DNA of 43,019 nt from assembly GCA_030725745.1 (NCBI GenBank), contig JANRFH010000006.1:1-43019 (forward strand), written 5' to 3'. Position 1 is the first letter of the stretch. Every line of letters starts with the position of its first letter. Positions 19,782 to 22,968 of the stretch are shown here, piece after piece. Source of the DNA: Akkermansiaceae bacterium. GTDB lineage: Bacteria; Verrucomicrobiota; Verrucomicrobiia; Verrucomicrobiales; Akkermansiaceae. Under the pieces are notes generated by a model. The model had not been told where the DNA came from, searched no databases, and saw only the letters and a program-made list of their open reading frames with translations. Made by a program: the position numbers and the translations under genes.

Positions 19782-20570
19782 TCAAGCGGTTGGGGCTGCT
19801 GGTGCTGGAGCCGGAGCGCCACCACCTTGCGGGCGGTTGTCTGGGCGTCCACCGCCACCTTGGCGACGGTCACCACCACGGTTTCCACGGTCACCGCGAT
19901 CTCCACGGTTGCCACGATCACCACGGTCTGGGCCGGGCTTGCCATCGTCCTCTTTCTTGTTGATCCAGCATTTCACGCCGATGATACCGTAAACGGTGCG
20001 TGCTTCGGCGAAGCCGTAATCAAGAGGGACACGGAGAGTTTGGAGAGGCACTTTGCCTTCGCGGTAGCTTTCTGCACGGGCAATGTCAGCACCACCGAGG
20101 CGGCCGCCACAACGGACGCGGATACCTTCGGCACCGAATTCCATGGCGGTCTGGATGGAGCGCTTCATGGCGCGGCGGAATGCGATACGGCGCTCAAGTT
20201 GGATAGCGATTTGCTCTGCGACGAGTTGTGCATCTAGCTCCGGTTTGCGGATCTCGAGGATGTCGAGTTTCACCTGGGAGTCTTTGCAGATCTTCTGAAC
20301 CTCAGCGGTCATGATCTCAATCTCTTTGCCCTGGCGACCAATGATCAGGCCGGGACGTGAGGAGTGGAGAGTGACGCGGACGCTGTTCCATGCACGCTCG
20401 ATGACGACGCGGGCAAGGCCTGCATTGACGAGCTTGTTCTTGAAGTAGCCACGGATGGCGAGGTCTTCGTGAAGCTTGGTGGTGTAGTCTTTGCCGCTGG
20501 CATACCATTTGGAGCGCCAGTCTTTGTTGACGGCGAGGCGGAAGGCGATCGGATTTACTTTTTGTCCCAT
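19782..20570 (-). CDS. rpsC: 30S ribosomal protein S3 with Arg/Gly tail
   Basis: Small-subunit protein at the mRNA entry tunnel, with helicase-like roles. The conserved body has the N-terminal MGQKVNPIAFRLAVNKDWRS, a KH domain with the loop RPGLIIGRQGKEIE (about residues 62-80), and GFAEARTVYGIIGVKCWINK near residue 205. Beyond it is an unusual tail of about 53 residues built from DRGDRGNRG-like repeats and then proline/alanine (residues 210-262). The total is 262 against 233 in E. coli. The repeats are visible in the DNA as GTGGCGACCGTGG-like words (19830-19940). The tail is probably disordered and RNA-binding. Confidence 0.96.
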   Translation of the reverse strand: MGQKVNPIAFRLAVNKDWRSKWYASGKDYTTKLHEDLAIRGYFKNKLVNAGLARVVIERAWNSVRVTLHSSRPGLIIGRQGKEIEIMTAEVQKICKDSQVKLDILEIRKPELDAQLVAEQIAIQLERRIAFRRAMKRSIQTAMEFGAEGIRVRCGGRLGGADIARAESYREGKVPLQTLRVPLDYGFAEARTVYGIIGVKCWINKKEDDGKPGPDRGDRGNRGDRGDRGNRGGDRRQGGGGRPDNRPQGGGAPAPAPAAPTA

Positions 20571-20603
20571 GGTGTTAGGTAGAAATGGTTATCGGGAGTG
20601 GAT

Positions 20604-21038
20604 TCAGGCGGTGGCTTCCTCGGAGGCCGGGGCTTCTTCTGTTGATACTGGCTTATCGGCCTTCTTGGCGGCGGCTTTCTTAGGAGCGCGCTTTTTCTTT
20701 TCCGGAGGAGCTCCGACGAGTGTGATGGAAATGTGTGAGGTGCGCTTGATGATGGCACCTGCAGAACCTTTAGCACGTGGCTTGAAACGACGCATCGTAG
20801 GCCCTGCACCAATGACGGCTTCCTTAATCATGAGGGAGCTCGCATCGAGTGAGAAATTGTTCTCCGCATCTGCGATGGCGGTCTTGAGCGTTTTCCCGAT
20901 GAGGAATGCTGCCTTCTTCGGAGTGAAGGTAAGAATGTCGAGCGCGTTGGAGACGGGGAGTCCCTGAATTTCGCGGGCGACGTCGCGCGCTTTCTTGGGC
21001 GAGAGACGGACAAATTTGGTGATGCTAGTGACTTCCAT
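20604..21038 (-). CDS. rplV: 50S ribosomal protein L22 with Lys/Ala tail
   Basis: Large-subunit protein whose beta-hairpin lines the exit tunnel. The body has KFVRLSPKKARDVAREIQGLP at the start and GPTMRRFKPRAKGSAGAIIKRTSHISITL near residues 78-107, where macrolide-resistance changes occur in other species. A tail of about 35 residues follows, first Lys/Ala-rich (PEKKKRAPKKAAAKKADK), then acidic. The total is 144 against about 110 usually. The gene upstream in the same transcript is not rpsS but an exported coiled-coil protein. Confidence 0.95.
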   Translation of the reverse strand: MEVTSITKFVRLSPKKARDVAREIQGLPVSNALDILTFTPKKAAFLIGKTLKTAIADAENNFSLDASSLMIKEAVIGAGPTMRRFKPRAKGSAGAIIKRTSHISITLVGAPPEKKKRAPKKAAAKKADKPVSTEEAPASEEATA

Positions 21039-21070
21039 GGTCGGCGGTTGTTTGAGAGTTGGTGGGAAAC

Positions 21071-21781
21071 TTAGTTTTGGGTAAGAAGGGCGGCGGTATC
21101 GCCGAGACGTGGTGTTTGTCCCGGAGTATCGATCTGTTCGACGAATGCACCGGAGATGCCCTTGCGGACATCCGCGAGGATGGCTTTTCCGTAAGGCTGT
21201 TGGCCGTGGATGAGGCGGAAGGTCATTCCAATCTTCGCACCCTGGCTTTCACCGAGATTGAGGACTAGCATGCCTGTTGCCTGATCCAGGCTGACGATTT
21301 TCGCCTGCTGGAGGTTTCCGGTGCGGACATCGGGGCGGGGTTTCTGGCGGAGACCTGTGACGGAGTCAAGCTCTCTGATTGCTGTTTCTACACGCATTCT
21401 TGCTTCCGGGTCGGAAACGACGGCTTCGAGCAGGTATTCCTGTACCGAGGCGGCGAGTTTCACGGAAGCGGTTTCGAGCGTGTTGATGCGTTCGTTGGCG
21501 AGTTCGAGGTCGGCAGCTGCCTGGATGAGGCGGTCGTCGCCACCATCGAGCAGGTTTTTGCCGAGAGCTTCGAGACCGACGCGCACTTTGGTGAGCTGTT
21601 CGGTGGATTCCTTCTCCGCTTTGTTTGCCTCAACGAGTGAGAGCTCCAAAGTGCGGTTCTTTTCTTGAAGATCAGAAACGAGCTTTTGGAGATCCACGTT
21701 GTCCTGCGCCTGGCACGGCACGACCATGGCCAGCAACCCGAGGGCGGCGGCGTAGGAACGTGGATGACAGATGAAGGACAT
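21071..21781 (-). CDS. Exported coiled-coil protein inside the S10 cluster
   Basis: I cannot name this 236-residue protein. A signal peptide is likely (SYAAALGLLAMVVPCQAQ, cleavage near residue 25). A long heptad-rich helical region follows, about 28-130 (VSDLQEKNRTLELSLVEANK, LELANERINTLETASVKLA). The C-terminal beta-rich domain (about 155-236) contains MLVLNLGESQGAKIGMTFRL, like the small barrel seen in other exported coiled-coil proteins. It sits between rpsS (35 bases upstream) and rplV (32 bases downstream) on the same strand, so it should be co-transcribed with ribosomal proteins. A periplasmic or envelope role is implied by the signal peptide. Codon style matches its neighbours, which argues against a recent insertion. 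Confidence 0.85.
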   Translation of the reverse strand: MSFICHPRSYAAALGLLAMVVPCQAQDNVDLQKLVSDLQEKNRTLELSLVEANKAEKESTEQLTKVRVGLEALGKNLLDGGDDRLIQAAADLELANERINTLETASVKLAASVQEYLLEAVVSDPEARMRVETAIRELDSVTGLRQKPRPDVRTGNLQQAKIVSLDQATGMLVLNLGESQGAKIGMTFRLIHGQQPYGKAILADVRKGISGAFVEQIDTPGQTPRLGDTAALLTQN

Positions 21782-21816
21782 TTCGATGAGGATTGCGGAG
21801 ATGAAACGGAAGCGGA

Positions 21817-22089
21817 TTACTTCTTACCGATGCCGCCGTGGGCACGGAAGATGCGGGTCGGTGCGAATTCGCCGAGTTTGTGGCCGACCATGTTTTCCGT
21901 GACATACACGGGAACGAAGGTCTTGCCGTTGTGCACGGAGAAGTTGTGGCCGACGAAGTCTGGCGTGATCATGGACTTGCGCGACCAGGTTTTGATCGGC
22001 TTGCGGTCGGATCCGGCTTCGGCGACGGCATCGATCTTGGCGAGGAGCTTCTGATCGACGAATGGACCTTTCTTGAGGGAACGTGGCAT
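21817..22089 (-). CDS. rpsS: 30S ribosomal protein S19
   Basis: Small-subunit head protein that pairs with S13 near the A-site. The 90 residues start [19 protein letters not shown] and include [50 protein letters not shown] in conserved order. Normal length. Upstream is rplB as usual; downstream, instead of rplV, is the exported coiled-coil gene. Confidence 0.97.
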
Positions 22090-22122
22090 TTGGTGATTCT
22101 TTTAGGAGTTCTAGGAAAGGGA

Positions 22123-22968
22123 TTACTTCTTCTTGCGATCGTGACGGGACTCGACGATGAAAACGCTGGTGGTCTTCTTCTTCTTGCGGGTCTTCTGACC
22201 CTTCGCGTGACCCCATGGGGAGAGAAGGTGCTGGCGACCACCGCCGGACTTGGACTTGCCCTCACCACCACCGTTCGGGTGATCGACGGGGTTCATGCAC
22301 ATGCCGCGAACGGTCGGGCGGACACCCTGCCAGCGTGAGCGGCCGGCTTTTCCGGAGACTTCGTTCATGTGGTCGCGGTTGCCAACGACACCGATGGTGC
22401 AGTAGCAGGCTTCGTGGAAGCGGCGGATTTCACCGGAGCGCATCTTGATGAGCGCCCAACCACCGTCGCGGTTGGAAAGAACTGCGCTCTGACCTGCGGA
22501 GCGGGCAACTTTGCCGCCGTTACCAGGAAGGAGCTCGATGTTGTGGATTTCCGTTCCGAGAGGCACTTTGGAAAGTGGCATCGCGTTGCCGACCTTAGGA
22601 GCCGCAGTTTCGCTGGAGATCACAGTCGCACCGTCTGTAAGACCGGCAGGAGCTAGGATGTAAGATTTCGTGCCGTCCTTGTATTCGAGAAGGGCGATGC
22701 GGCAAGTGCGGTTCGGATCGTATTCGATACCGATGACAGTTGCTTCCATGTTGCGCTTGTTGCGTTTGAAATCGACAAGACGGTAGTGGCGCTTGTGACC
22801 ACCGCCGATGTGACGTGTGGTGATGCGGCCCGTGTTGTTCCGGCCACCCGAGCGCTTAAGCGGGGTGAGCAGGGATTTCTCCGGCTTGCTCTTGGTGATC
22901 TCTTCGAAAGAAGGGAGCTCCTTGTAGCGCTGGGATGGGGTAAGTGGCTTGAAAGTTTTTAGTGGCAT
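22123..22968 (-). CDS. rplB: 50S ribosomal protein L2
   Basis: Core large-subunit protein needed for subunit joining and peptidyl-transferase function. In 281 residues, [23 protein letters not shown] lies near residues 39-61 and the catalytic-centre segment [18 protein letters not shown] in the last quarter. The usual second His of VDHPHGGGEG is Asn here, while the preceding His is kept. Normal length. It lies between rplW and rpsS. Confidence 0.97.

Follow-up and report, generated by a model that had tools for sequence, protein, structure and literature searches.

A predicted exported protein encoded between rpsS and rplV in the S10 ribosomal protein cluster of Verrucomicrobiota

The S10 cluster is a textbook case of fixed gene order. 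What, then, is a gene for a predicted exported protein doing in the middle of it, and how widely is it found there? The window analysed here, a 43,019-nt stretch of DNA from an Akkermansiaceae bacterium (contig JANRFH010000006.1), carries on its minus strand the order fusA, rpsJ, rplC, rplD, rplW, rplB, rpsS, X, rplV, rpsC, rplP, rpmC, rpsQ, rplN, rplX and rplE, with the cluster genes named by eye from their translations (rplW, rplB, rpsS, rplV, rpsC and rplP served as search queries too). Gene X, as we call it, is a minus-strand open reading frame (ORF) that occupies exactly 21071–21781 (stop codon included), starts with ATG and encodes a protein of 236 aa, defined here by the ORF list, its translation and homologues at the same site, that belongs to an unnamed family. 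It is separated by 35 nt (21782–21816) from rpsS upstream (21817–22089, minus strand; the query for the class-wide search) and by 32 nt (21039–21070) from rplV downstream (20604–21038, minus strand), exactly as in an earlier note on this DNA that had placed the gene between these neighbors without giving a strand. The source genome contains one full-length copy of X. Two of the ribosomal proteins have tails that look like extensions of the usual proteins: a Gly/Arg/Asp-rich repeat (GDRGNRGDRG...) at the C terminus of RpsC (window 19782–20000, minus strand) and a Lys/Ala-rich tail on RplV.

Closely related genomes have the gene in the same place. A match to X was found at E ≤ 0.1 in 56 of 59 relatives, and the remaining three genomes are 59–84% complete. 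Among 84 loci from the genus and the order (30, 28 and 26 from successive searches, some genomes being counted twice), an X-type ORF lies directly ahead of rplV in every one and rpsS lies upstream in 83; in locus L072, the contig ends before the rpsS position. Five other families of the order contribute 22 of the genomes in this set, and the 19 of their loci that entered alignment A1 have 20–29% identity to X. Plain tblastn with X returned nothing in five of the 22 other-family loci, yet four of these could be aligned in A1, and the genome search had picked up the remaining one (L072). The same gene at the same site in many other genera and families is more than chance placement would produce. 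The earlier note had called for a comparison of homologous neighborhoods, and had named a gene confined to this genome and accompanied by transposon scars as the outcome that would count against it; instead, relatives, other families and other classes carry X at the same place, and on the strength of that shared site we reject insertion by a mobile element. The feature that the note flagged is real and unusual, and it is wider than the note could know.

Within the class, sampled as 189 genomes that are at least 90% complete, a profile matched 139 at E ≤ 0.001; 127 genomes had listed coordinates for X, and 149 had them for rpsS. In 104 of the 149 genomes with listed rpsS coordinates, X follows rpsS on the same strand at a distance of at most 501 nt; the other 45 comprise 12 with only weak X matches elsewhere and 33 without a listed X. 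Reading the rpsS gap in all 45 (L113–L150 and L293–L299) revealed no such gene in 43, a 127-aa form in L150 and a divergent ORF in L145. The last (genome G239) encodes 180 aa between rpsS and rplV, with a signal-like start and a β-like pattern, was missed by the profile and is perhaps a decayed or fast-evolving X. Among the class matches listed at E < 1e-12, a single one is away from the site (G147:C196, 9.4e-13). A further 22 class loci yielded 13 short forms (L151–L162 and L168), eight long forms and one locus (L169) that lacks both rpsS and rplV. The short form, mostly 108–130 aa, consists of a signal sequence and the β-domain, lacks the helix and occupies the same site (L150–L162, L168 and L222); with L150 included, it occurs in five class families of the sample (f13, f16, f37, f45 and f48). 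The helical part of X has been lost or gained between lineages. At the other extreme of length, L167 (G174) encodes a 558-aa long form in which a large low-complexity Pro/Ala/Lys-rich stretch precedes the helix, and which ends 324 nt ahead of rplV.

Across the phylum, a broader profile matched 162 of 240 genomes at E ≤ 1e-5, paralogues included. Eighteen loci from outside the class, chosen among the best matches and so biased towards presence, included 13 with X between rpsS and rplV, four (L207, L208, L215 and L219) with X directly before rplV but no upstream rpsS, the upstream genes looking unrelated by eye, and one paralogue at another site (L212). An unselected count comes from the 101 non-class genomes of the 240-genome sample for which rplV coordinates were listed. 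In 52 of them, X immediately precedes rplV: in 36 the listed X match ends within 196 nt of rplV, and in 16 more (8 of 38 and 8 of 27 loci read) an X-type ORF ends anywhere from 10 nt inside rplV to 101 nt ahead of it, the 10-nt overlap occurring in two loci. In 34, rpsS and rplV are 12–213 nt apart with nothing X-like between them; these include L231, L233 and L267, with gaps of 178–213 nt in which no X was found and a weak profile match, its place not listed, in each genome. In 14, rplV has neither rpsS nor X beside it and the S10 cluster is split (L226, L228–L230, L240, L241, L245, L253, L255, L257, L276, L279, L282 and L285; in several of these genomes, the X profile matches weakly at another place), and one locus (L289) is at a contig end. 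The conserved position between rpsS and rplV on the same strand is therefore found in many lineages and missing from many others, and the many lineages without X indicate that the link is dispensable at the scale of the phylum. A scan of a wider contig set with X as the query gave 28 loci, all titled Verrucomicrobia, Akkermansia or relatives; Verrucomicrobiota was the only phylum searched.

Some loci in which the cluster has come apart show X siding with one neighbor. In 21 fetched non-class loci (L207, L208, L215, L219, L224, L235, L239, L242, L244, L250, L254, L258, L261, L262, L275, L277, L280, L286, L287, L288 and L292, which come from related lineages and do not represent 21 independent events), X is directly ahead of rplV and no rpsS occurs upstream in the stretch read. 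In these loci, the cluster has been interrupted on the rpsS side of X, which has remained next to rplV. In one of them, L219 (positions 1542–2194, genome G320), the X before rplV starts without a signal and a signal-like start is present in an overlapping upstream frame; this gene may be broken, misread or split.

Selection on X is purifying, with a median dN/dS of 0.15 and a maximum of 0.48 over 121 pairs from 94 distinct genes. It evolves faster than its neighbors (median 0.17 versus 0.04 for rplV and 0.05 for rpsS, in a comparison whose pairs are not independent and include duplicate loci, with a maximum of 1.45 in that run). Distances between C-terminal domains track those of rpsC plus rplV (Mantel r 0.785 over 41 rows, with none of 2000 permutations as high), as expected if X descended mainly vertically. 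The earlier note's description of the codon style as matching is fair, though X sits at the low end of the ribosomal range: measured against the ribosomal genes of the window plus fusA, X has a codon adaptation index of 0.625, and 14 of those 16 genes score higher (range 0.59–0.80), as do 4 of 16 other large ORFs of the window that were chosen by size, without annotation.

Neither gap around X in the window has a promoter or terminator match. A search of window positions 20500–22400 returned no sigma-70-like promoter and no terminator-like site on the minus strand, with seven such sites on the plus strand, and among 127 distinct gap pairs, a terminator-like hairpin was present in one upstream gap (L078) and in no downstream gap. 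The isolation of X from the ribosomal transcript by a promoter and terminator of its own, which the earlier note had named as a way for its idea to fail, is therefore not what these searches for sigma-70-like promoters and terminator-like sites found. The gaps are short, with medians of 20 nt between X and rplV and 27 nt between rpsS and X, the latter figure being weakened, like a Shine-Dalgarno count (17 of 127) that we do not rely on, by start codons that were assigned by a rough rule and are in some cases clearly wrong. From the short gaps and the near absence of terminators, we infer that X shares a transcript with the ribosomal genes. A set of close relatives has a wider rpsS-X gap of 74–120 nt, AT-rich in some, that might hold a promoter or a small element; in L003, L005 and L036, the gap measures roughly 100 nt, and AT-rich repeats of the type TTTAAA...TTTAAAGTTT are present there in both orientations.

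The architecture that the earlier note had proposed, a signal peptide, a coiled coil and a β-rich C-terminus, is largely borne out by prediction, the coil being the less secure part. Approximately the first 26 residues (21704–21781, minus strand) form a predicted Sec signal sequence, in which a hydrophobic stretch (an 11-mer from residue 11 with a mean Kyte-Doolittle (KD) value of 2.59) is followed by small residues. The call uses hydrophobicity as its sole measure: an 11-mer with a mean KD of at least 1.8 occurs within the first 70 residues in 38 of 41 diverse aligned homologues. Because rpsC, one of six ribosomal controls, likewise exceeds the cut-off (1.81), the measure does not separate cleanly, and the result supports a Sec signal but falls short of proof. 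Residues 28–142 (21356–21700, minus strand), the part that is missing from the short form, are predicted to form a long helix or coiled coil; the AlphaFold model of the whole protein (mean pLDDT 72.6, pTM 0.34) places helices at 28–123 and 125–142 and six strands within 159–232. The hydrophobic periodicity of residues 28–142, at close to 3.5 residues, is modest, being reached by 3.3% of 2000 shuffles, and the term coiled coil therefore depends mainly on the predicted helix. Residues 158–232 (21086–21310, minus strand), common to the long and short forms, are predicted from the models, alignment A3 and fold matches to be a small six-stranded β-barrel, and this domain scores better when modelled alone (pLDDT 83.7, pTM 0.75). 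In A3, which consists of 41 hand-picked rows (L071, L170 and L171 begin inside a longer ORF), G177 is invariant and G181, G185, R192, R206, G227 and D228 are present in at least 90%.

On balance, we favor the view that X is an exported, co-transcribed envelope protein that was fixed early in the phylum and became a stable member of the S10 operon. X would be made from the S10 transcript and exported via Sec by its predicted N-terminal signal; judging by eye, an N-terminal anchor may retain it in some other classes. It would probably oligomerize through the helix, and its β-barrel would probably dock on a periplasmic partner (an envelope complex or the cell wall, for example), much as FlgT-like or MreC-like domains build periplasmic assemblies. 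Sharing the S10 transcript would make X abundant, in an amount that scales with ribosome output and hence with growth; such coupling to growth is plausible, and so is a functional form of the tie between an envelope protein and ribosome production that the earlier note had expected from co-transcription. A bolder version, which we offer as a tentative proposal and would not expect to hold in full, is that X serves envelope assembly in this phylum specifically and that the S10 transcript hard-wires its dose to the synthesis of ribosomes, an arrangement that would have been present early in Verrucomicrobiota, with X persisting as a bare β-domain in some lineages and disappearing from others.

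The main rival to the envelope-protein reading is that the S10 operon captured X once and has kept it vertically ever since, as breaking up the operon is costly, so that X has an ordinary envelope role, uses the operon's strong promoter and gains nothing from being matched to ribosomes. The vertical signal in the distances fits this account, as does the patchy absence of X, with only weak matches elsewhere in genomes that lack it at the site. Purifying selection and the persistence of X beside rplV where the upstream rpsS is absent suggest instead that the linkage has been kept, although both are compatible with a captured gene too, and we consider capture without benefit a possible explanation that has well under an even chance of being right.

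For a family that has no Pfam or NCBIfam model of its own, finding a conserved, predicted exported protein in the S10 cluster throughout much of a phylum strongly hints at a function. The placement hints at an old tie between ribosome making and cell-envelope building and is relevant to how bacteria keep the growth of the envelope in step with their ribosome content; if the dose is in fact hard-wired, X would be a built-in link from ribosome production to envelope growth. The state of the site (long, short or absent) may also be of use as a marker in phylogeny. Ribosomal operons are known to contain non-ribosomal genes, and secY in the spc operon resembles X in being such a gene of the export route; it differs in being almost universal and in encoding the translocon itself, whereas X encodes a predicted exported protein. 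In the titles and abstract openings that our literature search covered, we found no description of a gene lying between rpsS and rplV in Verrucomicrobiota, nor of an exported protein family at this place. The available part of PMC3444138 names a PVC signature protein, the hypothetical protein CT421.2, without linking it to X. A transposon essentiality map and targeted mutagenesis exist for Verrucomicrobium spinosum, according to PMC12283558, and would make the role of X directly testable.

Could X belong to a family that is already known? The Pfam scan of X gave no family at the cut-off (best E 0.095; two unrelated weak matches), an NCBIfam search gave a single match of 14.7 bits against a cut-off of 270, and Foldseek gave nothing at E ≤ 0.001. 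The families shown for 31 aligned members were all matched weakly: coil-rich proteins, MreC and FlgT_C, with E values of about 1e-4 at best. Two of these names recur, and membership in the MreC family or in a flagellar H-ring, FlgT-like system draws on several likenesses. The MreC plan is an anchor, a coil and a β-domain, which X shares, including a G...G...GM pattern in the β-domain; a few members weakly match MreC models (best E 2e-4, in one member), and a PDB profile search gave a weak MreC match (E 0.019). FlgT_C (PF16538) is weakly matched by 9 of the 31 members (best E 0.0089), and FlgT is among the best PDB fold matches of the C-terminal domain, with Z 10.5 for 8z5n chain 0 (rmsd 2.9, 81 aligned residues; taken to be FlgT because of the title of the entry and because it ranks next to 3w1e) and Z 9.7 for 3w1e (rmsd 3.0, 81 aligned); the FlgT domain, like the one predicted for X, is a small β-barrel of a periplasmic protein. 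Against MreC, PF04085 is absent from the Pfam scan of X, and the sole PF04085 match in the genome is another gene, on contig C30, at 125 bits (cut-off 28). MreC genes are commonly beside mreB and mreD, though this is not strictly defining; the neighbors of X are rpsS and rplV, in the S10 operon. X is also predicted to have a single barrel. Against FlgT, X is encoded in a ribosomal operon, its family matches FlgT only weakly in sequence, the Pfam scan of X shows no FlgT_C, and the genome, which is 95% complete, has no FlgT_C match at E ≤ 1 and no match to the flagellar export gate FHIPEP at E ≤ 0.01. We reject both identities, and membership of X in either system is very unlikely. FlgT is a component of the H ring in Vibrio motors, according to PMC7693769. 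The N-terminal barrels of F1- and V-type ATPases tie with FlgT as fold matches (Z about 10), and the fold match assigns no function to X. X lacks the ATPase core, and its likeness to the F1-ATPase alpha/beta barrel is probably just that of a common barrel.

Least probable of all, and hardly to be expected, is that X acts as SecM does ahead of secA, where an exported nascent chain controls translation of the following gene: the predicted export of X, its short gap to rplV with the 10-nt overlap in two loci and its persistence beside rplV without rpsS would suit such control of L22 synthesis, but the last residues of X homologues differ widely in A3 and show no conserved arrest-like C-terminal tail, a short form lacks the helical part, and the whole barrel, which a sensor would not need, is conserved.

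X does have relatives in its own genome. Contig C52 carries tandem paralogues of 265 and 269 aa, each with an anchor-like N-terminus, a long helical part predicted by eye and a related C-terminal domain, that are weakly similar to X (E 4e-4 and 2.6e-9) and have no ribosomal protein gene in the stretch read around them. X seems, therefore, to be the ribosomal-operon branch of a wider envelope-type family. The pair lies at approximately 103178–104807 of that contig in the source genome (G000; L263:474–2103), near an opposite-strand gene that resembles rlmH by eye, and a comparable tandem pair is present in a genome of genus g18 (L221).
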